Shown piece after piece: positions 4,949 through 49,991 of a DNA stretch of 64,000 nt. The position numbers and the translations under genes were made by a program. Within the stretch, counting starts at the first letter, position 1. Each line of letters opens with the position of its first letter. The DNA is taken from positions 100,393-164,392 of IMG/VR virus record IMGVR_UViG_3300042539_000280, one strand, 5' to 3'. The DNA comes from a virus. The notes below the pieces were generated by a model. The model did no database searches. It was not told the origin of the DNA and saw only the letters and a list, made by a program, of their open reading frames with translations.

Positions 4949-4976
4949 ATTATAGCACATAGGACGGATTAGTCAA
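4949..4976 (-). promoter_or_regulatory. Sigma70-like promoter with upstream element (copy A)
   Basis: On the minus strand TTGACT (4976-4971) and TATAAT (4954-4949) are separated by 16 bases. It fires toward the H1-like gene, whose ATG lies 32 bases after the -10 behind AAAGGAG. A palindrome lies 21 bases upstream of the -35. Confidence 0.88.
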
Positions 4977-4983
4977 GCGAAAA

Positions 4984-5040
4984 GGTATGTCAACGCCTGC
5001 GACATATTGTCGCACCCTGAATGTAGACGGTTGACATACC
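4984..5040. promoter_or_regulatory. Nested palindromic element (copy A)
   Basis: Inner perfect repeat TGCGACA-TAT-TGTCGCA at 4998-5014, enclosed by a perfect 11-base outer inverted repeat GGTATGTCAAC (4984-4994) and GTTGACATACC (5030-5040). It sits directly upstream of promoter copy A. A regulator-binding site is the likely role. Confidence 0.75.
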
Positions 5041-5046
5041 CTGTTG

Positions 5047-5271
5047 TCATTCACCACCCTCTAGTCTGTTTACATACATCATACGGGACGCACCGCCCGC
5101 ATAATCAAAATCCAAGGACTCGATTATGCCGTTGACCATGTCACGGTCAACCTTGAGACGGGAACGCTCATTAACATATTCTACCACATCGCCAACATAG
5201 TAGGCACCTGCCTCTATAGCATCACCTACCAATTCAACAATATCGGTATAGGCATCAGACATACGGGACAT
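5047..5271 (-). CDS. Small hypothetical protein
   Basis: The 74-residue protein (MSRMSDAYTDIVELVGDAIEAG) is helical and acidic, with no recognised motif. GGAGG lies just upstream of ATG 5271. It is the last gene of the transcript from promoter copy B, before the palindromic element of copy A. Confidence 0.6.
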   Translation of the reverse strand: MSRMSDAYTDIVELVGDAIEAGAYYVGDVVEYVNERSRLKVDRDMVNGIIESLDFDYAGGASRMMYVNRLEGGE

Positions 5272-5272
5272 A

Positions 5273-5989
5273 TTAGAACCTCCAGAAAGAGTTGATCATA
5301 TTGGTAACATAAACGTCGAGAATTTCCCAAACGTTTTTATTCGACTCAAGGTCCTCTTTCATCTTGCGAACCTTGGCCATCATGCTCATACCATGGGCAG
5401 GATAAGCAACGACCTTGACAGTCTTATCCCAGCAGGCACGGCAGTCGCCGCATTTACCATCACGCTCATATGCACCACACATAAACGCATCCGTCGGTTC
5501 ATCGGCAAACGAAACAACGGTCGAACCATGTTCCTCTGTAAATTCACCGACAATAGACGGAGACGAATAACGCACCGCAGCATTGGGCAGAGTTTTCATA
5601 CGGTCAAGAACCGCACGGATCTTCGGGATAGTATAAGACTTGGTCGGCAGCCAATGCTGCACATGCGGAGTCTTTTGCATCACCAGAAAGATTTTAAAAG
5701 CAAGAGCGGGATGATAAACGTCTCCCGAGTCGAACCAACGGAAAAACTTTTGCTTTGCAAGAGCCAGCACCATATCATCGACCCATTCGGCACGTTTCCA
5801 ATCTTCACGATTTTCTTCACGGACACGTTTTGAGTTTTTGAAACTGTAAGTGCCACCTTTAGCATAGCATCCGGCACAAACGGGCAACGGCTGCTTAGTA
5901 AACGGGTCAATCGATCCAGGGCAGGTCGAACCGGCCTGGAGAGACCACGATTTAGCGGGCATTTTCGACGCCTTGGAGAGATTAATCAT
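5273..5989 (-). CDS. GP88-family phage protein
   Basis: The start MINLSKASK at 5989 follows AAAGGAAC; longer frames would begin inside the promoter. The 238-residue product has WSLQAGSTCPGS, PVCAGCYAKGG and a later CGDCRACWD, the cysteine pattern of the phage family named after mycobacteriophage gp88. The cysteines suggest a metal or iron-sulfur site. Biochemical function is not established. Confidence 0.7.
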   Translation of the reverse strand: MINLSKASKMPAKSWSLQAGSTCPGSIDPFTKQPLPVCAGCYAKGGTYSFKNSKRVREENREDWKRAEWVDDMVLALAKQKFFRWFDSGDVYHPALAFKIFLVMQKTPHVQHWLPTKSYTIPKIRAVLDRMKTLPNAAVRYSSPSIVGEFTEEHGSTVVSFADEPTDAFMCGAYERDGKCGDCRACWDKTVKVVAYPAHGMSMMAKVRKMKEDLESNKNVWEILDVYVTNMINSFWRF

Positions 5990-6022
5990 TTTTGTTCCTT
6001 TTTCAATTTTCATCATACGGTA

Positions 6023-6051
6023 ATAATAGCACAAAGGAACGGTAAAGGCAA
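6023..6051 (-). promoter_or_regulatory. Sigma70-like promoter with upstream element (copy B)
   Basis: Minus-strand TTGCCT (6051-6046), 17-base spacer, TATTAT (6028-6023). The spacer contains ccgttcc and ends in tgtgc, as in copies C and D. It drives the GP88-like gene. Confidence 0.82.
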
Positions 6052-6072
6052 CAGAAAAGGTATGTAAACAGG

Positions 6073-6089
6073 TGCGACATGATGACGCA
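6073..6089. promoter_or_regulatory. Palindromic element (copy B)
   Basis: TGCGACA-TGA-TGACGCA, an imperfect version of the palindrome, 21 bases upstream of the -35 and followed on the plus strand by CCCTTAGTCTAT, as in copies C and E. The region up to 6180 also has GTCTACATAC twice and no convincing gene. Confidence 0.72.
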
Positions 6090-6210
6090 CCCTTAGTCTA
6101 TAGTTTTGGTAGTCTTTTGCGATTGTAGACAGATTTCTTGTCTACATACACCTTCGGTCTACATACAGGAGTCCGGAGTGCCTTGGCCACCGGATTTATG
6201 GTTTTGCGTT

Positions 6211-6375
6211 TCAATTTAGATAAACCTCCTCTATTTCAAAGTCATCAGAAGAAATTCCTTCATCGATTTCAAATTCTTCTAACATCATATCAATACAGGC
6301 CTGTGCCTGTTCTATTGTCTTAAAGACTCCACACATATCTGGTTCGAGAGAAAAATAAAGATTATAAACTTTCAT
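6211..6375 (-). CDS. Tiny early-region protein
   Basis: 54 residues (MKVYNLYFSLEPDMCGVFKTIEQAQACI), with GGAGG ten bases upstream and an AATGA overlap with the preceding gene. It resembles its neighbours in layout: an N-terminal strand, then F/Y-x-x-x-x-x-A and an acidic helix, suggesting a paralogous micro-protein family. Unknown function; possibly a host-takeover factor by position. Confidence 0.6.
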   Translation of the reverse strand: MKVYNLYFSLEPDMCGVFKTIEQAQACIDMMLEEFEIDEGISSDDFEIEEVYLN

Positions 6376-6551
6376 TCTACATAATCCTCCACAATACTAA
6401 AGTCCTCAGGTGAATACATTGCTTCACCTTCAAATTCTTCGGCCAGCATTTCATTGAGATATGCTTCTGCCTTTTCATAGTTTGAATAGATGCCACGAAT
6501 AACTTTACCATCAATCAGGTCATCATACCAAAGAATAAAGATGTTATTCAT
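6372..6551 (-). CDS. Tiny early-region protein
   Basis: 59 residues (MNNIFILWYDDLIDGKVIRG), then YSNYEKAEAYLNEMLAEEFEG and an acidic end. It shares the pattern IYSNYEKAEAYL with IFSSYVKARDYV in the product at 8106-8285. Stop and start codons overlap both neighbours. Confidence 0.6.
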   Translation of the reverse strand: MNNIFILWYDDLIDGKVIRGIYSNYEKAEAYLNEMLAEEFEGEAMYSPEDFSIVEDYVE

Positions 6552-6703
6552 TATCTTGCCTCCACAGTATTACCTTGATAAAAGGCATCATTCTTATAGT
6601 GTTCGATATAACGTTTTACTGCTACACGAGAGATACCACGAAAGGTAAGAAAGGTGCCCGCACTAAAGTAAACGGTCAGATTGAACGTATTAACATTAGC
6701 CAT
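6551..6703 (-). CDS. Tiny early-region protein
   Basis: 50 residues (MANVNTFNLTVYFSAGTFLT), then FRGISRVAVKRYIEHYKNDA. GGAG lies upstream of ATG 6703, and the stop overlaps the next start (TAATG). Net basic and beta-strand-like at the front. Not recognised. Confidence 0.55.
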   Translation of the reverse strand: MANVNTFNLTVYFSAGTFLTFRGISRVAVKRYIEHYKNDAFYQGNTVEAR

Positions 6704-6821
6704 TATATTTACTCCTTAGAGAAAGGTAAACACCAAGAACGCCGATTGTATATACGATAACCATCCACTCCGGCACGAAAGCATAAAGCGGATAGCCGTC
6801 AAAGCGGATGGATATTGTCAT
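6696..6821 (-). CDS. Tiny membrane protein
   Basis: 41 residues with one hydrophobic segment (WMVIVYTIGVLGVYL at about 19-33), so a likely single-pass inner-membrane protein. It overlaps the start of the next gene by eight bases. Unknown function. Confidence 0.5.
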   Translation of the reverse strand: MTISIRFDGYPLYAFVPEWMVIVYTIGVLGVYLSLRSKYNG

Positions 6822-6823
6822 TA

Positions 6824-7006
6824 TTACGGTCCTTGCCATTCAGCGGCCGGAGCATCTAACTCACGAGCCTCGATACGATAAAACGGTACATCAACAGAAC
6901 GATCCCAGTCCTCAAATGCAGCACGAGCCGCATCCTCAGAACCATACACACCAATCAACCAGTCAGAGTCCGAGAACGGCTCGGCTACCAAAGCATATAC
7001 TCGCAT
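6824..7006 (-). CDS. Tiny early-region protein
   Basis: 60 residues (MRVYALVAEPFSDSDWLIGV), then YGSEDAARAAFEDWDRS. The YxSxxxAxxAF part matches the pattern of the other small proteins here. Spacing to neighbours is two bases or less. Unknown function. Confidence 0.6.
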   Translation of the reverse strand: MRVYALVAEPFSDSDWLIGVYGSEDAARAAFEDWDRSVDVPFYRIEARELDAPAAEWQGP

Positions 7007-7108
7007 TTAGTTCGTCCTATCAATAACAATCCACAGCAAAGTGCCGATAAAGGAAAACGTAGCAACCATACCGAGTGCCACATATTGCATGATTTTATTT
7101 TCGTCCAT
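7007..7108 (-). CDS. Tiny membrane protein
   Basis: 33 residues with one transmembrane segment (YVALGMVATFSFIGTLLWIVI). The start overlaps the upstream stop (ATGA). Real by context, function unknown. Confidence 0.5.
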   Translation of the reverse strand: MDENKIMQYVALGMVATFSFIGTLLWIVIDRTN

Positions 7109-7260
7109 CATCTAACAATCTCCTTCTCCATAATGTATAACCAGTTACCATCATCGGTTTGTTTACCAAACCGCATGATTGAATATCCGATATTAGATAA
7201 TTCGACCAGTCGTTTGGCGACGAAACGAAAAGAACCAGACAGGATTATTTGGTGTGTCAT
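7108..7260 (-). CDS. Tiny early-region protein
   Basis: 50 residues (MTHQIILSGSFRFVAKRLVE). The start at 7260 is chosen for its GGAGG at the right distance; a longer frame lacks a site. Basic N-terminal half. Not recognised. Confidence 0.55.
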   Translation of the reverse strand: MTHQIILSGSFRFVAKRLVELSNIGYSIMRFGKQTDDGNWLYIMEKEIVR

Positions 7261-7412
7261 ATGAAAATATCCTCCAATTCGTCCATGTCGTTTATAGTAC
7301 CAGGAACAATCCAATATGAGATATCAGCATCAAGTAACAGATTGCCAAGGTACTGTGTGAAACAATACTCACGAGTGCCACGTTCATCGTAGATAGAATA
7401 AAACACCGTCAT
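7257..7412 (-). CDS. Tiny early-region protein with YWIVPGT motif
   Basis: 51 residues (MTVFYSIYDERGTREYCFTQ). The stretch SYWIVPGTINDMDELED is almost repeated in the product of 7948-8106 (SYWIVPGTLNLED), so the two are paralogs. Unknown function. Confidence 0.6.
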   Translation of the reverse strand: MTVFYSIYDERGTREYCFTQYLGNLLLDADISYWIVPGTINDMDELEDIFI

Positions 7413-7422
7413 ATTAGTTCTC

Positions 7423-7641
7423 CTATTCAGCCATCACGGCCTTGAGCAAATCTTCATTCATAACAGTAGCAGCAATAAGGCGCAAGGTCTTTAACTTGCG
7501 GGTTGCTATTGTTACAAGTTCGGGATCACTCAGGCAATCCCGCTTCATTCCCATTTCAGATAATGTGACGGCGAGTTCTTCCATGGGCAATTCCATGTTC
7601 TCACGATATTCTTGAGTATCAAGATTGACAATCGTAGTCAT
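7423..7641 (-). CDS. Small hypothetical protein
   Basis: 72 residues from the ATG at 7641, preceded by GGAG. Helical, with LPMEELAVTLSEMGMKRDCLSDPELVTIATRKLKTLRLI. Not recognised. Confidence 0.55.
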   Translation of the reverse strand: MTTIVNLDTQEYRENMELPMEELAVTLSEMGMKRDCLSDPELVTIATRKLKTLRLIAATVMNEDLLKAVMAE

Positions 7642-7642
7642 A

Positions 7643-7726
7643 TCAATTCTCCATGCTAGTAAGAGCAATAAGAGCAAACGCAACCGGCGGAACAAACACT
7701 ACCATAAAGAGAACGATATCAGTCAT
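7643..7726 (-). CDS. Micro membrane protein
   Basis: 27 residues, nearly all hydrophobic (MTDIVLFMVVFVPPVAFALI). Too short for certainty, but the start is placed between tightly packed genes and its stop overlaps the next gene's Shine-Dalgarno region. Confidence 0.4.
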   Translation of the reverse strand: MTDIVLFMVVFVPPVAFALIALTSMEN

Positions 7727-7729
7727 TAA

Positions 7730-7945
7730 TTACTCCCAAGGTTTGGCTTCACCAAGATAACAACGTGCCTGTCTAGTACCTTCAGGATTAACTAGATTAA
7801 GAAACGTGTTACCCCATTCACCGATACGGGTTGACTCGGTGATATGAATAATAGTCCAAATTTGACGGCCGGTGCCAATTTTAATCTTGTCACCGATTAC
7901 AGGATCCCATCGTTTTTCATCTTTAAAGCGATTTGACCTTTTCAT
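7730..7945 (-). CDS. Small hypothetical protein
   Basis: 71 residues, basic N-terminus (MKRSNRFKDEKRWDPVIGDK), then a beta-rich part (GRQIWTIIHITESTRIGEWG) that could be a small barrel. Not recognised. Confidence 0.6.
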   Translation of the reverse strand: MKRSNRFKDEKRWDPVIGDKIKIGTGRQIWTIIHITESTRIGEWGNTFLNLVNPEGTRQARCYLGEAKPWE

Positions 7946-7947
7946 TA

Positions 7948-8106
7948 TTAATCCTCCAGATTAAGAGTGCCGGGAACGATCCAATAGGACTCGGACGGAT
8001 ATTTGCCGCTATTGTGATTAGCACAATAGTAAGCAACCATCCAATCGTTATCAAAACCATCGGGTTCGAATACCGAAAGAGCATAGATATGACGCATAAA
8101 ATACAT
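7948..8106 (-). CDS. Tiny early-region protein with YWIVPGT motif
   Basis: 52 residues (MYFMRHIYALSVFEPDGFDN), ending SESYWIVPGTLNLED, a paralog of the product at 7257-7412. Its start overlaps the stop of the upstream gene (TAATG). Confidence 0.6.
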   Translation of the reverse strand: MYFMRHIYALSVFEPDGFDNDWMVAYYCANHNSGKYPSESYWIVPGTLNLED

Positions 8107-8285
8107 TATATTTCCTCTCCACATTGGCCGAATTGATATATTTCGTCCAGTTCAACCTTACGGATATAAACGTCACTGTCTTTCAGAGACAATACATAAT
8201 CACGAGCCTTCACATAACTGGAGAATATGCCCATTAATTGCTCGCCCTCATAAGCGATTGACCATATTACAGCGAAAACTTCCAT
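8106..8285 (-). CDS. Tiny early-region protein
   Basis: 59 residues (MEVFAVIWSIAYEGEQLMGI), then FSSYVKARDYVLSLKDSDVYIRKVE. Same layout as the product of 6372-6551. Unknown function. Confidence 0.6.
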   Translation of the reverse strand: MEVFAVIWSIAYEGEQLMGIFSSYVKARDYVLSLKDSDVYIRKVELDEIYQFGQCGEEI

Positions 8286-8289
8286 GATA

Positions 8290-8454
8290 TTAACCTTTCG
8301 TTAGTTTAACCTTAGAAACAGTATAACCCTTCTTCGGGCGTTTCACAGGTTTGGCCACTTTAATTGTACCGCCATTCTCAAAATAGTTAGTGAGGGCGTT
8401 AAGAGTGCCAAGGTCCAGGTTAAAGGACTTTTTAACGAAACGGGCGTTAGACAT
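8290..8454 (-). CDS. Tiny basic early-region protein
   Basis: 54 residues, very basic C-terminal half (KVAKPVKRPKKGYTVSKVKL). It is the first gene behind promoter copy C, with a GGAAAATATC leader before ATG. It may bind nucleic acid; not recognised. Confidence 0.6.
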   Translation of the reverse strand: MSNARFVKKSFNLDLGTLNALTNYFENGGTIKVAKPVKRPKKGYTVSKVKLTKG

Positions 8455-8486
8455 GATATTTTCCTTTCAATCTCGATTGTTGACGT

Positions 8487-8515
8487 ATCCTAGCACAACG
8501 GAACGGCATTGTCAA
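8487..8515 (-). promoter_or_regulatory. Sigma70-like promoter with upstream element (copy C)
   Basis: Minus-strand TTGACA (8515-8510), 17-base spacer with ccgttcc and tgtgc, TAGGAT (8492-8487). It heads the array of tiny genes ending near 6211. Confidence 0.82.
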
Positions 8516-8536
8516 TGTAAACTGGCACGGAACTGG

Positions 8537-8553
8537 TGCGACATGATGACGCA
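8537..8553. promoter_or_regulatory. Palindromic element (copy C)
   Basis: TGCGACA-TGA-TGACGCA, followed on the plus strand by CCCTTAGTCTATAG; 21 bases upstream of the -35, the same distance as in copies A, B and D. Confidence 0.72.
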
Positions 8554-8587
8554 CCCTTAGTCTATAGAGTCGGTAGAGTGTTGTCAT

Positions 8588-8908
8588 TCACCGAACGTCT
8601 GTATTGAGGGCGGGAGAGAGGTCACGGATCAATTCCCGCTCACGGAGGTGAGCCTCGGCCTTGCCTCGAACCACCTCATAATAGCAGACCTCGAACGCCT
8701 CCGGACCGTATTTCCGTATCGCCTTGCATAAGGCCCAGTCCCTGCCTTCGGTAAGGGCTCGGCGGACATGCTTTTGCCAGCGACGGATAACAGACTTGGA
8801 CACGGCTGATTTGTCTACATACGTCACACCGATATACTCTAAACCATTGACGGATAAAGAATATATGACATGCTTACGGTCGGAACGTGATTTGCGCTTT
8901 TTGATCAT
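8588..8908 (-). CDS. GIY-YIG nuclease-like protein
   Basis: The 106-residue protein has VIYSLSVNGLEYIGVT, the GIY...YIG strand pair, followed by a helix with RRWQKHVRRAL and a later glutamate in LRERELIRDL, fitting a minimal GIY-YIG endonuclease domain. Free-standing homing-type nucleases of this kind are common in T4-like phages. The ATG lies only five bases after the promoter -10, so the mRNA would be nearly leaderless. Confidence 0.7.
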   Translation of the reverse strand: MIKKRKSRSDRKHVIYSLSVNGLEYIGVTYVDKSAVSKSVIRRWQKHVRRALTEGRDWALCKAIRKYGPEAFEVCYYEVVRGKAEAHLRERELIRDLSPALNTDVR

Positions 8909-8913
8909 GCTGC

Positions 8914-8941
8914 ATTATAGCACAAGGAACGGAATAGGCAA
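8914..8941 (-). promoter_or_regulatory. Sigma70-like promoter with upstream element (copy D)
   Basis: Minus-strand TTGCCT (8941-8936), 16-base spacer with ccgttcc and tgtgc, perfect TATAAT (8919-8914). The downstream ATG is at 8908, leaving no room for a leader. Confidence 0.85.
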
Positions 8942-8948
8942 TAAAAAA

Positions 8949-9004
8949 GGTATGTAAACGACTGCGACAGGATGTCGCACCCTGACCTTGGCCGTTTACA
9001 TACC
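8949..9004. promoter_or_regulatory. Nested palindromic element (copy D)
   Basis: Inner perfect repeat TGCGACA-GGA-TGTCGCA (8963-8979) inside a perfect 12-base outer inverted repeat GGTATGTAAACG (8949-8960) and CGTTTACATACC (8993-9004). Confidence 0.78.
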
Positions 9005-15995: not shown

Positions 15996-16471
15996 TTCAC
16001 TTTCTCCATATATGTAGCACATGACGCTGGTAGTTTATTATCATACTTACAATATGCGGCGATCCAATCTGTAGCGATTGCTTTCTGTGCTTCCTCTAAT
16101 GAGATTTTACCGTCACATACCATTCTATTCAGGTGATGTTCTAATCCGTCTTTGACTCTGGCATTCCATGTTTCAGTATAGAACGATTGAGGCCATAGAT
16201 TCCGCATAGAGTTTGATCCACCAAGTTCTAAACTGATTAGATGATCAACCTCATATTGTCCGGGAACTCTTGTTATACCATATAACTCATAGATATGATC
16301 CTTTTTTGATTGCGAAACATGCCTAACTGTCTTAGTATAACCTACTGTGCAAACTTTGTCAAGACCCACTGGTAAGGTATCACCAGGAGTCATAGCAGGA
16401 TTAGGAAGGATGGGATCTGCTCCCCATGCCAGTGAAGGCACGAGGAGCATTGCTAGGATTAGATTTCGCAT
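15992..16471 (-). CDS. Exported HNH nuclease-like protein
   Basis: 159 residues with a signal peptide (1-17, AWG/AD). The HNH core is YEVDHLISLELGGSNSMRNLWPQ (D76, H77, N91). The predicted export sets it apart from the usual phage HNH proteins and suggests action in the periplasm or outside, perhaps on incoming or released DNA. Overlaps the RNR gene by 13 bases. Confidence 0.75.
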   Translation of the reverse strand: MRNLILAMLLVPSLAWGADPILPNPAMTPGDTLPVGLDKVCTVGYTKTVRHVSQSKKDHIYELYGITRVPGQYEVDHLISLELGGSNSMRNLWPQSFYTETWNARVKDGLEHHLNRMVCDGKISLEEAQKAIATDWIAAYCKYDNKLPASCATYMEKVK

Positions 16472-18354
16472 CCGCCGGCCGTGCAGGCAAGAGTTTGGAC
16501 ACCTTCAACATTGTCATCCATTTCAACCAATGTATCCCAATCAAGTGATTTAGGAATTGAAGGTAGCATTGCTTCATACAAGTCTTGTGTGATTTCTTCA
16601 TAAGGTGCTTGACGATACGAACCACCGTCATGTGGAAGGAATGATACACCAGACATTTCATCAAAGTGATCATATACCCATGCACCAACTTTCATCCATT
16701 CATCTTCTTTGACGTTGATTGTAACGGATGGCTTATGCTCACACCATGCTTCCTGATAGATAGCCCATAGTTCAAGATGCTTGATTGCGTCGATATCGTC
16801 TCTTACAACTGCACCCTTTGGTGCTTTCATTGGGAAAGAGAACACCGTTGTGGAGTCAGGCTTCATAACGTCTGGCTCCCATGGCACACCCTTGTCCTTC
16901 ATGAATTGGGTGAGAGGATCTTTATTATCAGCACGGACACGGCGGATATAATAATTGGCATGGCGAGGATGAATGCCAGAAGCGGAGTCACAGAGTTGTG
17001 AGACTGTTCCTGATGGTTTGACACAGGTGATGGCTGCTGCTGGGTTGATGCCGAGTGTGTTGGCGAGGTTAGCATTGGTGTTGATCGCATGATCACGGAG
17101 TTCATTTAGTCTCTCCTTTATATTCTTATCATCTGGATTGTTGAATAGTTTGGAGTCATAGATGCCTGTGAGAGAAACACCAAGTAGTCTTTCTTCTTCG
17201 GCGTTCTTAACCCAAATCTTTCTTAGATACGGGAAATCAGTGAGAGTAGACTGGAAAGTACCGAGAATAGTAGCAACCTCAATCTTTTCCTTAATCTGTT
17301 CAATGGTGTCTGTGGCTCTGATAACCACTTCGGTAAGGTTACAAAATCCGTATGGTCTAAGGATAATTTCACTACACGGATTGGTGCCGAATAACTGATC
17401 AGCATTTCTTCTTCCGTTTCTTTTGGCGATTTTCTGACATGCTTCACGACTGAATAAACCTCTCTCTCCTGATTTCGACTCATATAGTGATACCCATTCG
17501 GACATGAATGAACCAATTTCTGGTTTCTCGTTATATACGGCCGAGTTGTTTGATAATGCTCTCTGAGGGTTGGCCTCCCACCATGCACCTGCCTTGGCGT
17601 GGCGCATACGGTCATCTGATAGATTAGATAGACTGATCATAGCAGAACGGCGAACACCACCGACCACCACAACCTCACCGATCTTACACATAATGTCATG
17701 ACATTCAAGTGAGGTAAGACGGCGACCATGTGCGTTACGAAACATCTTTACAACAAACTTAAACAGTTCCGAAAGTGGGCCTGGTCCAGATGAACGGCCA
17801 CCAAATGTCTTTAGAGGAGCACCTGCTGGTCGAACCTTGGTCAGGTCCCACTTTGGAACTTCGCCCGTATAGAGAAGTGCAATAAGCATACGGAGAGCCT
17901 TTGCCCATCCTTCCTTACTGTCTCTAACGACGATTACGGTTTCAGAGTCAAATAGTTTCTCTGGAATTTCTGGTAGTTGATTGATAAACTGGCGTTCAAC
18001 GGAGAATCCTACACCTGTGCCACATAAGAGGATAAACATGGCTTCATCAAAGGCCTTGGGATCATCAATAGGTAGAAACGAACAGTTATAACCACAAGTG
18101 TGGTCACGCATAAGTGCCTTGCCAGATGTCATCAGGGCTCGCATAGAAGGCATGACCTTCATGTCATGAATGTGATCGAATATGCGTTTACGAAGGTCTG
18201 GTGTTATATCGTAACTATGATTTGTATGTAAGTGCATATACATAAAGTCAAGGTAACGATTGATTGTTTCTTCCCAGTTCTCACGGCGATTTTGTTCTGG
18301 TAGATAGCGTGAGTATCTGCTCTTGTAAATAAACTCTTGATATAAACTGTCCAT
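16459..18354 (-). CDS. Class II (adenosylcobalamin) ribonucleotide reductase
   Basis: 631 residues, similar in length and layout to monomeric ribonucleoside-triphosphate reductase. Visible features: MPSMRALMTSG, DHTCGYNCSF (substrate-side cysteine), FGTNPCSEIILRPYGFCNLTE (active site), KPSGTVSQLCDSASGIHPR and the C-terminal redox pair CTAGGC (C624, C629). It makes deoxynucleotides without oxygen or iron radicals but needs cobalamin from the host. Confidence 0.92.
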   Translation of the reverse strand: MDSLYQEFIYKSRYSRYLPEQNRRENWEETINRYLDFMYMHLHTNHSYDITPDLRKRIFDHIHDMKVMPSMRALMTSGKALMRDHTCGYNCSFLPIDDPKAFDEAMFILLCGTGVGFSVERQFINQLPEIPEKLFDSETVIVVRDSKEGWAKALRMLIALLYTGEVPKWDLTKVRPAGAPLKTFGGRSSGPGPLSELFKFVVKMFRNAHGRRLTSLECHDIMCKIGEVVVVGGVRRSAMISLSNLSDDRMRHAKAGAWWEANPQRALSNNSAVYNEKPEIGSFMSEWVSLYESKSGERGLFSREACQKIAKRNGRRNADQLFGTNPCSEIILRPYGFCNLTEVVIRATDTIEQIKEKIEVATILGTFQSTLTDFPYLRKIWVKNAEEERLLGVSLTGIYDSKLFNNPDDKNIKERLNELRDHAINTNANLANTLGINPAAAITCVKPSGTVSQLCDSASGIHPRHANYYIRRVRADNKDPLTQFMKDKGVPWEPDVMKPDSTTVFSFPMKAPKGAVVRDDIDAIKHLELWAIYQEAWCEHKPSVTINVKEDEWMKVGAWVYDHFDEMSGVSFLPHDGGSYRQAPYEEITQDLYEAMLPSIPKSLDWDTLVEMDDNVEGVQTLACTAGGCEI

Positions 18355-42441: not shown

Positions 42442-42711
42442 TTAGAGAACGATAGAACCAGCATAATTCTCAAAGAAGCCTTTAAGGTTTTCTTCGAAAG
42501 ACGGGCTACGACTTATATAGTCACGATACAATTCATAGATTTCATCATAGACACGAGGTGCAACAAACTCGGTGTTATTCTTGTCAACAACTTCCCATTT
42601 GTTACCACCATCACGATACTCGATTTCCTCAATCAATTCGTCCGTGTCATAATCACAAAGGTCGACATCAACATCAACGGCGACTTCTCGATAAACAGTC
42701 TTGCTAACCAT
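42442..42711 (-). CDS. Small acidic hypothetical protein
   Basis: 89 residues (YREVAVDVDVDLCDYDTDEL, then VYDELYELYRDYIS-like helix). GGAG before ATG. First gene after the promoter at 42739-42767. Not recognised. Confidence 0.55.
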   Translation of the reverse strand: MVSKTVYREVAVDVDVDLCDYDTDELIEEIEYRDGGNKWEVVDKNNTEFVAPRVYDEIYELYRDYISRSPSFEENLKGFFENYAGSIVL

Positions 42712-42738
42712 TCCGTTTCTCCTCTCACATTATGAATA

Positions 42739-42767
42739 AGGATAGCACAGAAGAAACGGAATGTCAA
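42739..42767 (-). promoter_or_regulatory. Sigma70-like promoter
   Basis: Minus-strand TTGACA (42767-42762), 17-base spacer ending ctgtgc, TATCCT (42744-42739). It drives the acidic protein at 42442-42711 and the exported Gly/Tyr-rich protein. Confidence 0.72.
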
Positions 42768-44304: not shown

Positions 44305-44321
44305 ATAAATTTCCTTCAATT

Positions 44322-44395
44322 GGTTCAGGATCATGGATTCGAACCACGAATACCGGAGTCAGAGTCCGGGGTTTTACCAGTTAAACTAATCCTGA
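44322..44395 (-). tRNA. tRNA-Gln (CTG)
   Basis: Acceptor TCAGGAT/ATCCTGA, T loop TTCGAAT, anticodon loop CTCTGAC, encoded CCA. Lies between the AT-rich gene and the radical SAM gene. Confidence 0.92.
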
Positions 44396-44398
44396 ATA

Positions 44399-45862
44399 TT
44401 ATAGACTTAGTTTTTTGTGTTTATAATCTTGTAATCGGTCATAGAAAATTGAGTCATCCATATGTGTTTGAAACCCAACTTTTGATTTCAAACAATCTAA
44501 GATTGATAGATTTCTTTGATAAAGAAAATGTAAATTAAATCCAGTCGCTCCATATTCGCCACTATTGTATAGGTGAAAGTTCATATCATTGCATATATCT
44601 TGTGCCGTAAAAATGTCCATGTTATCATTTTCCCACATCATTTTTTTAGCAACTTGTTCGATACCAATTCTTTCTACCTTTGAATTTGTTATATGTCGAT
44701 ATCCCCATTTGCTATAATCTAAACTAAGGGTAGATAACCTGTCCATTGTCGGATCTAGTGGAATTTCCAAAGGATTGATACTATAAAATTCACCTTTCCA
44801 ATTTTCCTCAAGCCAATTGAAAGTTCTATTCAACGTTTCTACTGTTTCGTGTGGGAGACCGGCAATAAGTGATATATGACCACGATAATATCCATCACCA
44901 TGAGTTTTGAAATATTGTTTGGCATCCAGAATACCACTCAATATTTTTTCCATATTACTACTTTTTCCAATAGTCTTAGCACTCGCAGGATTCAGACTTT
45001 CTAATCCATAGAAATGAGCAACCATCCCTAGGCGAACCATAGGTTCCCAATCTTGAGGTCTAATTGCTAATAAGTCACCTCTCAAAAATGCGCTAAAGAA
45101 GGGTCTAAAAGATAATCTATCCGCCGCATCAGCATACTTTACAACCTTTTCAGTATAATCATTGAATGTTTCATCTGCTACAAAATAATTTGAAACACCC
45201 CAATTATCATAGTTGGTTGACATTTCCTCATAAAAATCTTCGGCACTCCGAGTATAATCACCTTTTACTCCCAAAATGGGGTAGTTACAATACAAACATT
45301 TGAAGATGCAACCACGGGAAAATTCCATGGTCAACCATTCTCGTTGGTCGATAAAGTCTCGGTTTTGATAAACGATTTTTACTTCTTTTTGAGGAAAAGC
45401 AGGATAGTCTTTAATTGCATTGATAACTTTTTTATCTTCATAAATAGGATCAAACTTAATACCTTCAATTGGTGTATTGCCTATTAGGCTTTTTGTCAAT
45501 TCGGTTATAGCCTTTTCACCATATCCATGAACATAATAATGAATATAATTCGTTTTCATTCTTGGTGAACTTTGACCACCTAGAATGATCGTTACATCAG
45601 GATAATTTTCTGTAACCCATTGACAGAATAATTCTAAGTTTGGATCCCAATAACTCATAAAAGCACTAAATCCAACAAATACAGTTTTGTTGGATATTCG
45701 TGATCTACATATTTCTTTTAGTTCATCCAATTCAAAGAAGTTGGCCCAGTCAATGACCTCAACATCCCATCCTTCTTGTCTCAGATGGGTGGCAATTCTA
45801 TGTCCGCCTGGTAATCTTTTGTTGAAGTTTTCACAAATACTAAAGATCAAAGCATGGTGCAT
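44399..45862 (-). CDS. Cobalamin-binding radical SAM protein
   Basis: 487 residues. An N-terminal cobalamin-binding-like Rossmann part (to about 125: VGFSAFMSYWDPN, TIILGGQSSP) and a radical SAM core with SRGCIFKCLYCNYP (C185, C189, C192) binding [4Fe-4S]. ISLIAGLPHETVETL is the usual later strand. Members methylate or rearrange diverse substrates. It is flanked on both sides by tRNA-Gln genes. Substrate unknown; AT-rich. Confidence 0.82.
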   Translation of the reverse strand: MHHALIFSICENFNKRLPGGHRIATHLRQEGWDVEVIDWANFFELDELKEICRSRISNKTVFVGFSAFMSYWDPNLELFCQWVTENYPDVTIILGGQSSPRMKTNYIHYYVHGYGEKAITELTKSLIGNTPIEGIKFDPIYEDKKVINAIKDYPAFPQKEVKIVYQNRDFIDQREWLTMEFSRGCIFKCLYCNYPILGVKGDYTRSAEDFYEEMSTNYDNWGVSNYFVADETFNDYTEKVVKYADAADRLSFRPFFSAFLRGDLLAIRPQDWEPMVRLGMVAHFYGLESLNPASAKTIGKSSNMEKILSGILDAKQYFKTHGDGYYRGHISLIAGLPHETVETLNRTFNWLEENWKGEFYSINPLEIPLDPTMDRLSTLSLDYSKWGYRHITNSKVERIGIEQVAKKMMWENDNMDIFTAQDICNDMNFHLYNSGEYGATGFNLHFLYQRNLSILDCLKSKVGFQTHMDDSIFYDRLQDYKHKKLSL

Positions 45863-45900
45863 AAATATCTCTTACTATGGATTCACTCCATTATATAGAT

Positions 45901-45975
45901 TGGATCGGGGACAAGGACTCGAACCCTGATAGACAGAACCAAAATCTGCCGTTCTACCAATTAAACTATCCCCGA
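45901..45975 (-). tRNA. tRNA-Gln (TTG)
   Basis: Acceptor TCGGGGA/TCCCCGA, anticodon loop TTTTGGT, encoded CCA. Second Gln tRNA; together with 44322 it flanks the radical SAM gene. Confidence 0.92.
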
Positions 45976-45982
45976 ACAAAGA

Positions 45983-46067
45983 TGGTGCCGAGAGTAGGGT
46001 TCGAACCTACCGTGCTATAAGCGTCCGATTTACAGTCGGGTGCCCGTCCACTCAGGCGGTCTCGGCA
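45983..46067 (-). tRNA. tRNA-Tyr (GTA)
   Basis: Class II tRNA with a long variable arm; acceptor TGCCGAG/CTCGGCA, anticodon loop CTGTAAA, encoded CCA. Confidence 0.9.
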
Positions 46068-46070
46068 TAT

Positions 46071-46144
46071 TGGTTGTCCCTGATGGTATCGATCCATCGT
46101 CTATCGCTTATCAAGCGATTGCTCTACCTTTGAGCTAAGGGACA
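46071..46144 (-). tRNA. tRNA-Ile (GAT)
   Basis: Acceptor TGTCCCT/AGGGACA, anticodon loop TTGATAA, encoded CCA. The 5' end overlaps the 3' end of the small gene at 46135-46326. Confidence 0.9.
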
Positions 46145-46326
46145 GCAACTTTTAAACCTGTCAGTGGAATCTCATAGGACTCCACCGACACAATCTTTGA
46201 AACTCCTCTACAAGTAGCAATGAAACTTTCTGTATCTTTCCAGTTTCTAAAAGAAGTCTGGTATGTATTGCTACCATCTTTGATAAACACTATAAACTGT
46301 TTACCTTCTTTTGTCAAGTCAATCAT
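46135..46326 (-). CDS. Small hypothetical protein overlapping a tRNA
   Basis: 63 residues from ATG 46326 with AGGAG upstream (MIDLTKEGKQFIVFIKDGSN, then ATCRGVSKIVSVESYEIPL). Its TAG stop lies inside the acceptor/D region of the tRNA-Ile gene. Not recognised. Confidence 0.55.
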   Translation of the reverse strand: MIDLTKEGKQFIVFIKDGSNTYQTSFRNWKDTESFIATCRGVSKIVSVESYEIPLTGLKVAVP

Positions 46327-46327
46327 T

Positions 46328-46792
46328 TCAAAACTCCTTACGAGACTGGTTACACTCGAAAGTATACCAGCCTTCGGCACGACAGGCATCGATGATACGG
46401 TGACGATCATCAAACATTGCACCAACAGTATAACCAGGGTTAGCAGCAAGCCAATTCTTGATAATCGCAACCTTCAAAAGGTCATCATTACCACGAAAGC
46501 CGAAAGGACGCATATACATATCATCGTGGGACATCCACGGGATATGCTTATTGACCCATTCTAAAGTATCCTCACGAAAACGCTCATCACGGGCAGTAAC
46601 GATAATCACCTTATCACCCGGACGATCATTAGCCAAAGCGTGTAACACATCGATTACAGGCTGATAAGGCTCATCCAAATGCTGCTTTGAAAAGAACGCA
46701 TCCCATTCCTTTTTACCATTATCAAGATGGTGCATACGATGTTCGTTATCAGCAAGAGTGCCGTCAATATCAAAAATCCAAACCTTATTCAT
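46328..46792 (-). CDS. HAD phosphatase like the T4 Pnkp 3'-phosphatase domain
   Basis: 154 residues from ATG 46792 (AAAGGAA upstream). VWIFDIDGTLADNEHRMHHL is the HAD motif I with D8 and D10, in the form typical of the T4 polynucleotide kinase phosphatase domain; VIIVTARDERFR is motif II and MFDDRHRIIDAC motif IV. It would remove 3'-phosphates from nucleic acid ends, without a fused kinase. Confidence 0.82.
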   Translation of the reverse strand: MNKVWIFDIDGTLADNEHRMHHLDNGKKEWDAFFSKQHLDEPYQPVIDVLHALANDRPGDKVIIVTARDERFREDTLEWVNKHIPWMSHDDMYMRPFGFRGNDDLLKVAIIKNWLAANPGYTVGAMFDDRHRIIDACRAEGWYTFECNQSRKEF

Positions 46793-46817
46793 TCCTTTTC
46801 CTTTCACATTATGTCTA

Positions 46818-46846
46818 ATCCTATCACATTCGAAAAGGAATGTCAA
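46818..46846 (-). promoter_or_regulatory. Sigma70-like promoter
   Basis: Minus-strand TTGACA (46846-46841), 17-base spacer, TAGGAT (46823-46818). It drives the HAD phosphatase, the small gene and the tRNA-Ile/Tyr/Gln genes beyond. Confidence 0.75.
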
Positions 46847-46850
46847 GTAA

Positions 46851-46924
46851 TGGTGCCGGTTAACGGAATCGAACCGCTATCAGAGGACTACGAAACCACT
46901 GTAATGCCATTATACTAAACCGGC
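46851..46924 (-). tRNA. tRNA-Thr (CGT), weak anticodon stem
   Basis: Acceptor GCCGGTT/AACCGGC, T loop TTCGATT, encoded CCA. The anticodon loop is read as TTCGTAG by analogy with bacterial tRNA-Thr(CGT); the stem then has two T-T mismatches, so identity is less certain. Confidence 0.75.
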
Positions 46925-46929
46925 GTAAC

Positions 46930-47004
46930 TGGTGCCGCAAGTAGGAATTGAACCTACGACCTTTCCCTTACCATGGGAATGCACTACCTCTGTGCTATTG
47001 CGGC
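46930..47004 (-). tRNA. tRNA-Thr (GGT)
   Basis: Acceptor GCCGCAA/TTGCGGC, anticodon stem TTCCC/GGGAA with loop ATGGTAA, encoded CCA. Confidence 0.92.
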
Positions 47005-47007
47005 GAA

Positions 47008-47091
47008 TGGTACTGGGACTAGGTATCGATCCTAGGCTCCGAGTTCCACAAACTCGGGTGCTTCCATTACACTACCCCAGCAAATTGGTAG
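47008..47091 (-). tRNA. tRNA-His (GTG)
   Basis: Acceptor CTGGGGT with an extra G at -1, anticodon loop TTGTGGA, encoded CCA. The extra G is typical of tRNA-His. Confidence 0.9.
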
Positions 47092-47095
47092 GCGC

Positions 47096-47163
47096 ACTCG
47101 GATTCGAACCGAGAAAACTTACGGGTTTGAGCCGACTGACTTTACCTATTTGTCCATGCGCCC
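47096..47163 (-). tRNA. tRNA-Leu (CAA), short variable arm
   Basis: Acceptor GGGCGCA/TGCGCCT, T loop TTCGAAT, anticodon loop read as CTCAAAC, encoded CCA. The variable region is shorter than usual for tRNA-Leu and the anticodon stem is imperfect. Confidence 0.72.
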
Positions 47164-47164
47164 A

Positions 47165-47240
47165 TGGTGCGTCCCCTTAGAATCAAACTAAGTCCTTCGG
47201 TACTTCAAGCCGACGTGCGGATCACCTACACCAGGGACAC
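47165..47240 (-). tRNA. tRNA-Phe (GAA)
   Basis: Acceptor GTGTCCC/GGGACGC, anticodon loop TTGAAGT, encoded CCA. T loop TTTGATT. Confidence 0.85.
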
Positions 47241-47245
47241 ATAAA

Positions 47246-47320
47246 TGGTGCTTCATAGGAGTATCGATCTCCTCTTTCCCGCTTGAGAGGCGAGTGTCCT
47301 AGCCAATAGACGAATGAAGC
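47246..47320 (-). tRNA. tRNA-Glu (CTC)
   Basis: Acceptor GCTTCAT/ATGAAGC, anticodon stem CTCGC/GCGGG with loop CTCTCAA, encoded CCA. Confidence 0.9.
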
Positions 47321-47592
47321 ATAATAAGTGAGGATGAGGTGCCCAACCCCTCGCCTGCTGCTCCTCGACAGCGCCCTCTCTCCTGCAAATCCTAAACAGT
47401 CACGAATAGGACCGAGAGGCATGACTTGCGCCGAGCCGATGGCGACTAACCCACCCAGGCATTATTTCGGCTACAGAGGTCACGGCGACCTATTAAGAAG
47501 AAACGCTCCACCTATAGAGGATACTTAATGCTTAGTGTGCGATCACTAAGAATGTTCTCCCGGTTTCGCATCCCGGTACCGTTTCTTCAATA
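47321..47592. ncRNA. Structured non-coding segment inside tRNA array
   Basis: 272 bases, locally GC-rich, with no credible protein. Paired parts include AGGTC/GACCT, CTTAGTG/CACTAAG (47531-47550), AGCCGA/TCGGCT and a long-range pair GAAGAAACG (from 47498) with CGTTTCTTC (near 47580) enclosing a cloverleaf-like fold with a TTCGCAT loop on the plus strand. It could be one or two stable RNAs or decayed tRNAs. Strand not decided. Confidence 0.4.
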
Positions 47593-47668
47593 TGGTGGAC
47601 GTGAGAGGACTTGAACCCCCAACCTTCTCCGTGCAAAGGAGTTGCGCTCCCAGTTGCGCCACACGCCC
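47593..47668 (-). tRNA. tRNA-Ala (TGC)
   Basis: Acceptor GGGCGTG/CACGTCC, anticodon loop TTTGCAC, T loop TTCAAGT, encoded CCA. Confidence 0.9.
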
Positions 47669-47673
47669 ATAAC

Positions 47674-47748
47674 TGGCGACCCGTAGGGGTATCGATCCCC
47701 TCTCCCTAGCGTGACAGGCTAGAGTCCACACCTGCTGACTCACGGGCC
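47674..47748 (-). tRNA. tRNA-Asp (GTC)
   Basis: Acceptor GGCCCGT/ACGGGTC, anticodon stem CTAGC/GCTAG with loop CTGTCAC, encoded CCA. Confidence 0.92.
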
Positions 47749-47754
47749 ATTAAT

Positions 47755-47792
47755 TGGCTGGGACTTCACAGAGGTATAGGCTCTCCGTCCCG
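47755..47792 (-). ncRNA. tRNA-like minihelix or tRNA remnant
   Basis: On the minus strand GGGAC pairs with GTCCC and AGAG with CTCT around a 7-base loop, ending in GCCA like the neighbouring tRNAs. D and anticodon arms are missing. A competing repeat GTATAGG/CCTATAC (47774-47806) also exists. Probably a deleted tRNA; a functional minihelix cannot be excluded. Confidence 0.4.
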
Positions 47793-47811
47793 TAACTTTC
47801 CTATACTGCAT

Positions 47812-47888
47812 TGGTGCGCCTGGCAGGACTCGAACCTGCAAAATCTGGTTTCTAAGACCAGCGCCTTTACCAATTTGACCACAAGCGC
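47812..47888 (-). tRNA. tRNA-Leu (TAG)
   Basis: Acceptor GCGCTTG/CAGGCGC, anticodon stem CTGGT/ACCAG with loop CTTAGAA, encoded CCA. Short variable region as in the Leu(CAA) gene. Confidence 0.88.
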
Positions 47889-47893
47889 ATATA

Positions 47894-47968
47894 TGGTGCG
47901 GAATGATGGAATCGAACCACCGACACCCTGCGTGTAAAACAGGTGTTCTGCCATTGAACTAATCCCGC
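47894..47968 (-). tRNA. tRNA-Val (TAC)
   Basis: Acceptor GCGGGAT/ATTCCGC, anticodon stem CCTGT/GCAGG with loop TTTACAC, encoded CCA. Confidence 0.92.
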
Positions 47969-47973
47969 ATAAC

Positions 47974-48059
47974 TGGCGGATAAGTGAGGTCTCGATCCCC
48001 AAGCCTCTCGGCTCCTTTCGTTTTCGAAACGAAGGCCAGTCCCACTGACTTACTTATCC
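47974..48059 (-). tRNA. tRNA-Ser (CGA)
   Basis: Class II with long variable arm; acceptor GGATAAG/CTTATCC, anticodon stem TTCGT/ACGAA with loop TTCGAAA, encoded CCA. Confidence 0.9.
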
Positions 48060-48065
48060 ATAAAC

Positions 48066-48154
48066 TGGCGGAGTAGTAGGTATCCGACACCTATTCCCTT
48101 TCGGGAACCATCCGCTTTCCAAGCGGTGCAGACTCCTTGCCTGTTACTTACTCC
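48066..48154 (-). tRNA. tRNA-Ser (GGA)
   Basis: Class II; variable arm TTCCCGAAAGGGAA, anticodon loop TTGGAAA, acceptor GGAGTAA pairing toward TACTCC, encoded CCA. Confidence 0.9.
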
Positions 48155-48155
48155 G

Positions 48156-48243
48156 TGGCGGAGGGCGACGGTCTCGATCCGCATACCCCTAAGGATACCC
48201 TTGGTTTAGCAAACCAGGACAAGTCCCACCTGCTTCACCCTCC
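48156..48243 (-). tRNA. tRNA-Ser (GCT)
   Basis: Class II; acceptor GGAGGGT/GCCCTCC, anticodon loop TTGCTAA, encoded CCA. Third serine tRNA in a row. Confidence 0.9.
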
Positions 48244-48244
48244 G

Positions 48245-48385
48245 TTACATTCCAAACTGTGCCTTTACGGCAGTAACAATTTCATCAATGACGGTGTTGA
48301 TTTCATCGTCCGTCTGTGTAATTCCAAAACGATCTCTTAGAATAGATACAATAGCACTTCTTGTTTCATCTGTCAAGTTAAACAT
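48245..48385 (-). CDS. Tiny hypothetical protein
   Basis: 46 residues (MFNLTDETRSAIVSILRDRF, then GITQTDDEINTVIDEIV), helical. Preceded by GGAG, placed between a 2OG oxygenase gene and tRNA-Ser. Unknown function. Confidence 0.55.
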   Translation of the reverse strand: MFNLTDETRSAIVSILRDRFGITQTDDEINTVIDEIVTAVKAQFGM

Positions 48386-48388
48386 TAT

Positions 48389-49000
48389 TTATCTCCTCAA
48401 AATCTCGGCTCTACTGCCGATAGTTTCATCATAGAATATATTAAACGCTACTGATGTTCTGTTAATGGTAGATTTGTTCTCCGTTACCGAGTGATACAAT
48501 TTACTAGGAAACAGATACAAATCATACTTCTTAGGATTATATATCATGTGTGACCAATTGAATTGGGTACCATTGGTCATACCATCCCTAAAGGTTTCTT
48601 CCATGTATTGTGGTCGGTAGATTAGAAAATCACCACTGTCATCGTCCACATTCATGTAAAGACAACCACTGACTTTACTATTAGGGTGATAGTGTTTATG
48701 ATGACTATCCCCAGGTCTATTCAGGTTCAACCACGAACCTGTTATGCCTAACTTAGGCGACTCGCCTAAAATTTGGGTGCTGTAATGATCAATATATTCC
48801 TGTATGACAGGTTTTAGTTTTAGACCGTTCAACACAGTATAATCTTTACTTATAACATTGATAACATTACCTTCGGTATGACTTGGATCGTTAGCCTTGT
48901 TATCAAGGAACTCAATCTCATTAGTCATTTCTTCATTCAATACTGAACCGAGATTGACTATCATCACCGGTAATGGAAAGATACTATCAACCTTTATCAT
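48389..49000 (-). CDS. 2OG-Fe(II) oxygenase-like protein (HxH type)
   Basis: 203 residues of the phage 2OG family with ITGSWLNLNRPGDSHHKHYH and HPNSKVSGCLYMNV; distal KLYHSVTENKS and an arginine in INRTSVAFNIFY. HxD is replaced by HxH-like residues, as known for a phage oxygenase subfamily. Sits within the tRNA array. Confidence 0.8.
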   Translation of the reverse strand: MIKVDSIFPLPVMIVNLGSVLNEEMTNEIEFLDNKANDPSHTEGNVINVISKDYTVLNGLKLKPVIQEYIDHYSTQILGESPKLGITGSWLNLNRPGDSHHKHYHPNSKVSGCLYMNVDDDSGDFLIYRPQYMEETFRDGMTNGTQFNWSHMIYNPKKYDLYLFPSKLYHSVTENKSTINRTSVAFNIFYDETIGSRAEILRR

Positions 49001-49113
49001 TACTGACTTAGTAGAATGTTAATATCGCTTACAATAAATCCTACTGTAATAGCGATAGCAAAGAAAATGACCAGGCGAAAGATGGCCTGATATTTTAGTT
49101 GTTCTCTATCCAT
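49000..49113 (-). CDS. Tiny membrane protein
   Basis: 37 residues with one transmembrane helix (AIFRLVIFFAIAITVGFIVS). TAATG overlap with the oxygenase start. Function unknown. Confidence 0.5.
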   Translation of the reverse strand: MDREQLKYQAIFRLVIFFAIAITVGFIVSDINILLSQ

Positions 49114-49133
49114 ATATATTACCTCTCACGAAA

Positions 49134-49211
49134 TGGTCTAGGTGGAGGGATTCGAACCCCCGTTATTCTTCGTCCCAAACGAAGTGCCATACCAGGCTAG
49201 GCGACACCTAG
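49134..49211 (-). tRNA. tRNA-Pro (TGG)
   Basis: Acceptor CTAGGTG/CACCTAG, anticodon stem CTTCG/CGAAG with loop TTTGGGA, encoded CCA. Confidence 0.92.
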
Positions 49212-49218
49212 ATAAAAC

Positions 49219-49292
49219 TGGCGAAGGTACCAAGAGTCGAACTTGGGCTTGCGGTTTTGGAGACCGCCGTGCTACCGTAACACTTTACCAAC
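49219..49292 (-). tRNA. tRNA-Trp (CCA)
   Basis: Anticodon stem GCGGT/ACCGC with loop CTCCAAA, encoded CCA. The acceptor GTTGGTA/TACCTTC has two T-T mismatches, so aminoacylation may be weak. Confidence 0.85.
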
Positions 49293-49294
49293 AT

Positions 49295-49369
49295 TGGGTG
49301 CGGACCCATGAGTCGAACATGGCTCTCTTGCTTATGAGACAAGAATGGTCACCGGACCACCTGACCGCA
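49295..49369 (-). tRNA. tRNA-Met (CAT)
   Basis: Acceptor TGCGGTC/GTCCGCA with one mismatch, anticodon loop CTCATAA, encoded CCA. Elongator Met, or Ile after lysidine modification. Confidence 0.85.
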
Positions 49370-49376
49370 ATAACTC

Positions 49377-49451
49377 TGGTGCTGGAAGTTGGAATCAAAC
49401 CAACCTTTAAGGCCTTATGAGGACCCTTCGACATCTTGCCGACCTACCAGC
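49377..49451 (-). tRNA. tRNA with CAT anticodon (Met or Ile2)
   Basis: Acceptor GCTGGTA/TTCCAGC, anticodon stem GGGTC/GGCCT with loop CTCATAA, encoded CCA. T loop TTTGATT. Directly adjacent to another CAT tRNA. Confidence 0.85.
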
Positions 49452-49458
49452 ATATTGA

Positions 49459-49495
49459 TGGGCGGGTGTGGCTGACACCCTTTAAATGCACCCGC
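49459..49495 (-). ncRNA. tRNA-like minihelix or tRNA remnant
   Basis: Minus strand GCGGGTG, 20 bases, CACCCGC, then CCA: a perfect 7-base acceptor-like stem with encoded CCA but no room for D, anticodon and T arms. An inner alternative hairpin GGGTGT/ACACCC competes. Probably a tRNA gene after deletion. Confidence 0.4.
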
Positions 49496-49511
49496 TAGAT
49501 GCTACCCATAT

Positions 49512-49588
49512 TGGCGTTCCCGGAAGGACTCAAACCCTCAACCTCTGGTTTCGTAGACCAGCGTTCTATTCAGTTGAACTACGGAAAC
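49512..49588 (-). tRNA. tRNA-Arg (ACG)
   Basis: Acceptor GTTTCCG/CGGGAAC, anticodon stem CTGGT/ACCAG with loop CTACGAA, encoded CCA. A34 would need host TadA to become inosine. Confidence 0.9.
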
Positions 49589-49597
49589 ATACTAAAC

Positions 49598-49671
49598 TGG
49601 AGCGGGTAGGTGGTACTGACCCACCTTCTACACGTTGGCAACGTGTCATAATACCTTTATACTATACCCGC
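49598..49671 (-). tRNA. tRNA-Gly (GCC)
   Basis: Acceptor GCGGGTA/TACCCGC, anticodon stem ACACG/CGTGT with loop TTGCCAA, encoded CCA. Unusual T loop TCAGTAC. Confidence 0.88.
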
Positions 49672-49675
49672 ATAT

Positions 49676-49751
49676 TGGAGGATCCGGTCGGGCTCGAACC
49701 GACAACCGTAGGATTAAAAGTCCTCTGCACCACCTATTGTGCTACGGATCC
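49676..49751 (-). tRNA. tRNA-Lys (TTT)
   Basis: Acceptor GGATCCG/CGGATCC, anticodon loop CTTTTAA, encoded CCA. Confidence 0.92.
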
Positions 49752-49756
49752 ATAAT

Positions 49757-49832
49757 TGGTGAACCTGGAAGGAATCGAACCTTCAACACACGGATTAAGA
49801 GTCCGCTACTCTACCAATTGAGTTACAGGTCC
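49757..49832 (-). tRNA. tRNA-Lys (CTT)
   Basis: Acceptor GGACCTG/CAGGTTC, anticodon loop CTCTTAA, encoded CCA. Follows the other Lys tRNA. Confidence 0.92.
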
Positions 49833-49837
49833 ATAAT

Positions 49838-49912
49838 TGGTGACCCCTAGCGGAATCGAACCGCTCTACCAAGATTGAAAGTCTTGTGTCCTAACCGATA
49901 GACGAAGGGGCC
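49838..49912 (-). tRNA. tRNA-Glu (TTC)
   Basis: Acceptor GGCCCCT/AGGGGTC, anticodon stem CAAGA/TCTTG with loop CTTTCAA, encoded CCA. Confidence 0.92.
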
Positions 49913-49916
49913 GTAT

Positions 49917-49991
49917 TGGCTGGAATGGCAGGATTCGAACCTGCGACCAAGTGATTAACAGTCACCTGCGCTACCGCTGCGCCACATTCCA
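49917..49991 (-). tRNA. tRNA-Asn (GTT)
   Basis: Acceptor TGGAATG/CATTCCA, anticodon loop CTGTTAA, encoded CCA. Confidence 0.92.

Follow-up and report, generated by a model that had tools for sequence, protein, structure and literature searches.

What does a short palindrome do when it is set inside a second, longer inverted repeat and placed between the genes of a phage? This question is raised by a 64,000-nucleotide stretch of viral DNA (here called the window; it is the last 64 kb of the 164,392-base IMG/VR virus record IMGVR_UViG_3300042539_000280), in which two such nested repeats, copies A and D, lie between positions 4984 and 9004. A first-pass annotation suggested that one protein may touch both half-sites of the outer repeat, or that the unit may be a bidirectional control element or a cruciform. 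The analysis reported here leads to a different view: the copies are probably sigma70-type promoters of a T4-like phage that carry a box to which a response regulator of the host, from the RegA/PrrA/ActR/RoxR family, would bind, and A and D appear, from their sequence, to be overlaid with a terminator-like hairpin.

Palindromes next to predicted promoters

In copies A and D, perfect arms of 11–13 bp enclose TGCGACA-N3-TGTCGCA; the arms read GGTATGTMAAC before the palindrome and GTTKACATACC after it, followed by TTTT or TTTTTT (coordinates of all copies are given in Table 1). The single base by which the arms of A differ from those of D (C-G versus A-T) is changed on both sides, so that pairing is kept. 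A scan for perfect inverted 11-mers with a gap of 28–42 found four places in the window (A, D and two unrelated ones), compared to a mean of 0.3 in 60 dinucleotide shuffles, which confirms the nested repeats as first described. The two unrelated repeats (42709–42763 and 46790–46842, with arms of at least 11: CATTCCGTTTC, and CATTCCTTTTC with GGAATGTCAAG) surround promoter-like minus-strand sequences and appear to form a second class of hairpin/promoter element.

In the first 14 kb, plausible genes are encoded on the minus strand, and every copy lies between genes of the same strand; the element is therefore to be read on the minus strand. Read in this way, the palindromes, of which the whole record holds five (the fifth, copy E, lies among tRNA genes and was missing from the first-pass annotation), have a common layout: AGGG-TGCGWCA-NNN-TGTCGCA is followed after 21 bp (20 bp in E) by a −35 hexamer (TTGACT, TTGCCT or TTGACA) and, 16–17 bp further, by a −10 hexamer (TATAAT, TATTAT, TAGGAT or TATAGT). 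Judged by these hexamers, each of the copies A–E is situated just upstream of a predicted minus-strand promoter of the sigma70 type. The earlier idea that the unit is a control element thus holds, as far as it adjoins predicted promoters and its inner palindrome shows the behaviour expected of a site bound by protein. Transcription in the plus direction from TTGACA at 5031–5036, proposed along with it, was rejected: no −10 hexamer is present at 15–19 bp (the best candidate matches in 2/6 positions), and no plausible plus-strand gene follows.

The inner palindrome was then sought in other phages, using the flanked box AGGGTGCGWCANNNTGTCGCA as query in IMG/VR. It was found at 118 loci or more, about 3 being expected by chance according to the analysis' own estimate; among the matches listed are T4-like relatives and members of another group, whose terminase resembles that of pelagiphage HTVC027P. 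Also among the matches listed, the end of the palindrome is separated from the −35 hexamer by 0 bp in 9 clusters, by 10–11 bp in 11 and by 20–21 bp in 38; these whole-turn classes comprise 58 of the 78 promoter-bearing clusters. As the clusters are partly dependent, no P-value is attached to the 21-bp class, in which one phage group dominates. Shuffled sequences gave 29 promoter calls, spread across all distances. Such spacing is expected where a protein on the operator touches RNA polymerase from one face of the helix, and it is not produced by common descent alone; related promoters of the tRNA region have both 10/11-bp and 20/21-bp spacers. A dimer bound there would lie about 44, 54 or 65 bp before the start, in each case on the same side of the helix, and would help to recruit RNA polymerase. 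Activator-dependent promoters are known from CRP (class I and class II), where the operator likewise lies on one helical face, its distance from the −35 hexamer changing by about 10.5 bp per step; the regulator family and the positions (about −44, −54 and −65) are different here.

Three further searches yielded 136 loci of the T4-like group; counts of the non-redundant sites in the 20/21-bp class range from 69 to 71. Across these, the inner palindrome is nearly invariant, and it is kept in all aligned relatives; it is the core of the element, and the importance of the latter lies there and not in the outer arms. Records with the box contain 3–9 of them. In other phage groups, fully symmetric sites (AGGGTGCGACA-N3-TGTCGCACCCT) occur on contigs L079 (4060–4300; there a tandem duplication of about 123 bp) and L028 (1870–1900). 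By BLAST, the element had no convincing match among named phages, and the box is absent from the controls cyanophage DSL-LC03, T4, phiM12, Cr30 and phiM6. The T4-like pelagiphage HTVC008M has three boxes with one mismatch each, one of which (near 135440) is directly followed by TTTACT and, 17 bp on, by TAGAGT.

A candidate regulator from the host

If the palindrome is an operator, its protein might be found where the same box occurs in bacteria. Across 398 genomes of Pseudomonadota, the box GGTGCGACANNNTGTCGCA was matched 22 times (19 places, 17 genomes), compared to 2 for the reversed box. Judged by eye, its neighbours include genes for TonB-dependent receptors, for CopC/YcnI-like, PCuAC-like and CyoA-like proteins, and for a RegB/RegA-like pair, the regulator of which best matches ActR/PrrA/RegA (6.5e-38; PDB matches are 3rqi and PrrA 1umq) while the kinase matches ActS/PrrB. 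A RegA-family gene is encoded in 17/17 of the box-bearing genomes versus 17/34 of the others, in seven of the former no more than 3.3 kb from the box; looser boxes added four further genomes with the same RegA-type neighbourhood. Relative to the box, host −10 hexamers (at least 5/6 matches) are most frequent at +23, with 4 seen and 0.2 expected; this is exactly the −10 distance of the 0-bp class in phages. Box and promoter at the 20/21-bp spacing yielded five scattered matches in the bacterial genomes, close to chance; this arrangement is thus not common in bacteria. All five phage copies fit an inverted repeat GCGNC-N5-GNCGC provided that W is accepted on one side, and a degenerate GCG inverted repeat has been proposed for PrrA/RegA (PMC4263372).

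Together these data are good evidence, on the level of sequence comparison, that the box is a site of a RegA/PrrA/RoxR-type regulator. In its inverted repeat (GCGAC-N5-GTCGC), its association with regB/regA-type, oxidase and copper genes in hosts and its placement upstream of promoters, it resembles the boxes of the redox two-component regulators RegA/PrrA/ActR/RegR/RoxR of Pseudomonadota; in contrast to these, the phage copies are several, have a tighter consensus and are usually shifted upstream by one or two turns of the helix relative to the host boxes at +23. No match to HTH_8, the Fis-type domain, is encoded by this phage or by four other long T4-like records, and a phage-coded Fis-type regulator was rejected. 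Since the phage encodes no RegA-type regulator, it would use that of its host, whose redox/copper two-component system would in this way switch phage genes on, perhaps early in infection. As to this host, the DNA polymerase is nearest to those of cyanophages (47%), and the class II (B12-dependent) ribonucleotide reductase (window positions 16459–18354) is nearest to those from phages of the alphaproteobacteria Sinorhizobium, Rhizobium and Roseobacter; RegB/RegA is among the four two-component systems that SAR11 bacteria retain (PMC13198564).

Several observations weigh against this assignment. The regulator at the key locus scores below the NCBIfam equivalog cut-off, and genomes with a RegA above the cut-off (likely alphaproteobacteria) have no strict box near regA; a different regulator controlling regBA and copper genes would yield the same genomic pattern. 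Published chromatin immunoprecipitation sequencing of PrrA gave no strong consensus (PMC4263372). Finally, HTVC027P, HTVC023P, HTVC010P, HTVC019P and DSL-LC04 are without the box, though the pelagiphage host keeps RegB/RegA (PMC13198564). Literature searches for phages using PrrA/RegA, and for the half-sites together, found nothing relevant.

Outer arms and the terminator-like form

The outer arms are, by their distribution among relatives, optional. GTTKACA, the right box, occurs at 63 of the 71 related sites, at an offset of +3 (48), +2 (9) or, one turn later, +13/14 (12). Its inverted left counterpart, TGTMAAC, occurs at 46 of the 71, in variable position, and is sometimes replaced by a direct copy; of 39 pairs, 28 match at the variable arm base (Fisher P = 0.02, uncorrected for relatedness), and arms of at least 11 bp are restricted to 12 of the 71. 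Loss of the outer arms in related phages that keep the inner palindrome was to refute the first-pass idea, and the outcome is mixed: what stands of the two half-sites proposed earlier is the right arm, which is kept in most relatives, and not the symmetric pair. As GTTKACA is held at fixed, helically phased positions, the right arm may be a site of its own; the arms as an obligatory palindrome were rejected, and so was GTTKACA as a genome-wide box, there being no enrichment over the entire phage genome. The outer-arm heptamer is repeated in TGTAAACATG or GTAAACATG, found at the start codon below several such promoters (on L050, L054, L058 and others).

Long arms come with T-runs: runs of at least five T follow 8 of the 12 long-arm sites versus 6 of the 59 others (P = 1e-4). 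Compared to shuffles, the minus-strand RNA folds strongly in A (−27.9 kcal/mol, z −5.8) and D (−32.3 kcal/mol, z −7.1), moderately in B (z −2.6) and not unusually in C (z 0.1). Measured by what defines an intrinsic terminator (a stable stem, then a T-run, on the transcribed strand), A and D fit while C and E do not. Long arms, T-runs and folding together suggest that a complete nested repeat represents a special case: here the operator is overlaid with a hairpin that looks like an intrinsic terminator of the upstream gene. Transcribed from that gene, the arms and the T-run of A and D would form the hairpin within the same 57 bp and insulate the new promoter from read-through.

Table 1. Positions in the window of the five palindromes, their predicted promoters and the nested repeats
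Feature	Position	Strand	Remarks
Copy A nested inverted repeat	4984–5040	−	57 bp; arms GGTATGTCAAC (4984–4994) and GTTGACATACC (5030–5040) pair perfectly; terminator-like hairpin, then TTTT
Copy A operator TGCGACAATATGTCGCA	4998–5014	−	proposed RegA/PrrA/RoxR-type box; enclosed by the arms
Copy A promoter	4949–4976	−	−35 TTGACT 4971–4976; −10 TATAAT 4949–4954; palindrome 21 bp away
Copy B operator TGCGTCATCATGTCGCA	6073–6089	−	right box GTTTACATACC 6059–6069, without left arm
Copy B promoter	6023–6051	−	−35 TTGCCT 6046–6051; −10 TATTAT 6023–6028
Copy C operator TGCGTCATCATGTCGCA	8537–8553	−	right box GTTTACA 8516–8522, one helical turn lower, abuts −35
Copy C promoter	8487–8515	−	−35 TTGACA 8510–8515; −10 TAGGAT 8487–8492
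Copy D nested inverted repeat	8949–9004	−	arms GGTATGTAAAC (8949–8959) and GTTTACATACC (8994–9004), 13 perfect pairs when extended; terminator-like hairpin, then TTTTTT
Copy D operator TGCGACATCCTGTCGCA	8963–8979	−	enclosed by the arms
Copy D promoter	8914–8941	−	−35 TTGCCT 8936–8941; −10 TATAAT 8914–8919
Copy E operator TGCGTCAAAATGTCGCA	50385–50401	−	20 bp above promoter; left box TGTAAAC 50428–50434, distant; without T-run
Copy E promoter	50336–50364	−	−35 TTGACT 50359–50364; −10 TATAGT 50336–50341

The promoter of copy D reads into a small GIY-YIG-like protein gene (8588–8908), which lies directly below it and above copy C, and is kept beside the element in relatives. Copy E is surrounded by 27 tRNA genes (44321–61226), all on the minus strand; an Rfam scan found tRNAs and no other RNA family.

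Competing explanations and what the element may mean

A fusion of promoter and terminator-like hairpin recalls the PeSLs (promoter-early stem-loops) of T4-like phages, reportedly described by Arbiol in 2010 and Comeau in 2014, and the copies might mainly be cassettes of this kind: the hairpin would end upstream transcription, the promoter would restart it, recombination would have spread the copies and the palindrome would be a stem that binds no regulator. The strong folding of A and D, their T-runs, the link of long arms with such runs and the position between same-strand genes all fit, and PeSLs are a published class of T4-like phages, going by titles cited in PMC4503421. As far as these titles tell, both are repeated promoter and stem-loop cassettes between T4-like genes in a region of small variable genes; different from PeSLs are the invariant regulator-like box in the stem, its helical register with the −35 hexamer and the optional terminator part, the promoter being predicted in all copies and the hairpin in A and D only. 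Among relatives, the genes next to the element vary. C and E lack a T-run and C an unusual fold, the stem is conserved in its sequence beyond what pairing requires, and neither the phasing nor the linkage in host genomes would be explained, so that this account is regarded as unlikely. More probably, the element acts in the manner of an activator-type promoter that is helically phased and has a box for a host regulator; by its fusion with the hairpin in A and D, it would be a variant of the PeSL promoter-terminator cassettes.

Less probable still is a phage-coded activator or repressor, missed by the HTH_8 model, that binds the palindrome, the likeness to the host box being due to convergence or capture. 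The boxes are indeed dense in phages and rare in hosts; set against this are their sharing by phages of different kinds, their linkage to regBA in hosts and the lack of a Fis-type domain in the phage, where other DNA-binding folds were not scanned in every protein. The bidirectional element or cruciform of the first-pass annotation, with one protein on both outer half-sites, is very improbable: the arms pair perfectly, with compensation where A and D differ, and the right one is conserved, but the plus strand offers neither a −10 hexamer nor genes, and the left arm is conserved in neither place nor orientation. A cruciform is needed to explain nothing.

Reading the copies as promoters with a box for a host regulator leads to a wider proposition, for which the chances appear even: environmental T4-like and other phages would wire promoters to the host's RegB/RegA (PrrA/RoxR) system through an operator in helical register with the −35 hexamer, the infected cell's redox state would gate phage gene expression and some copies would be overlaid with a terminator. 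A sharp operator consensus is offered for a family of regulators with sites that have proved difficult to pin down, and the box may serve as a marker when hosts of uncultured phages are to be guessed. The success of phage early promoters is usually ascribed to their strength alone; if the proposition is true, infection would be tied to the respiratory and copper state of the host, via a box common to unrelated phages and placed in helical steps.

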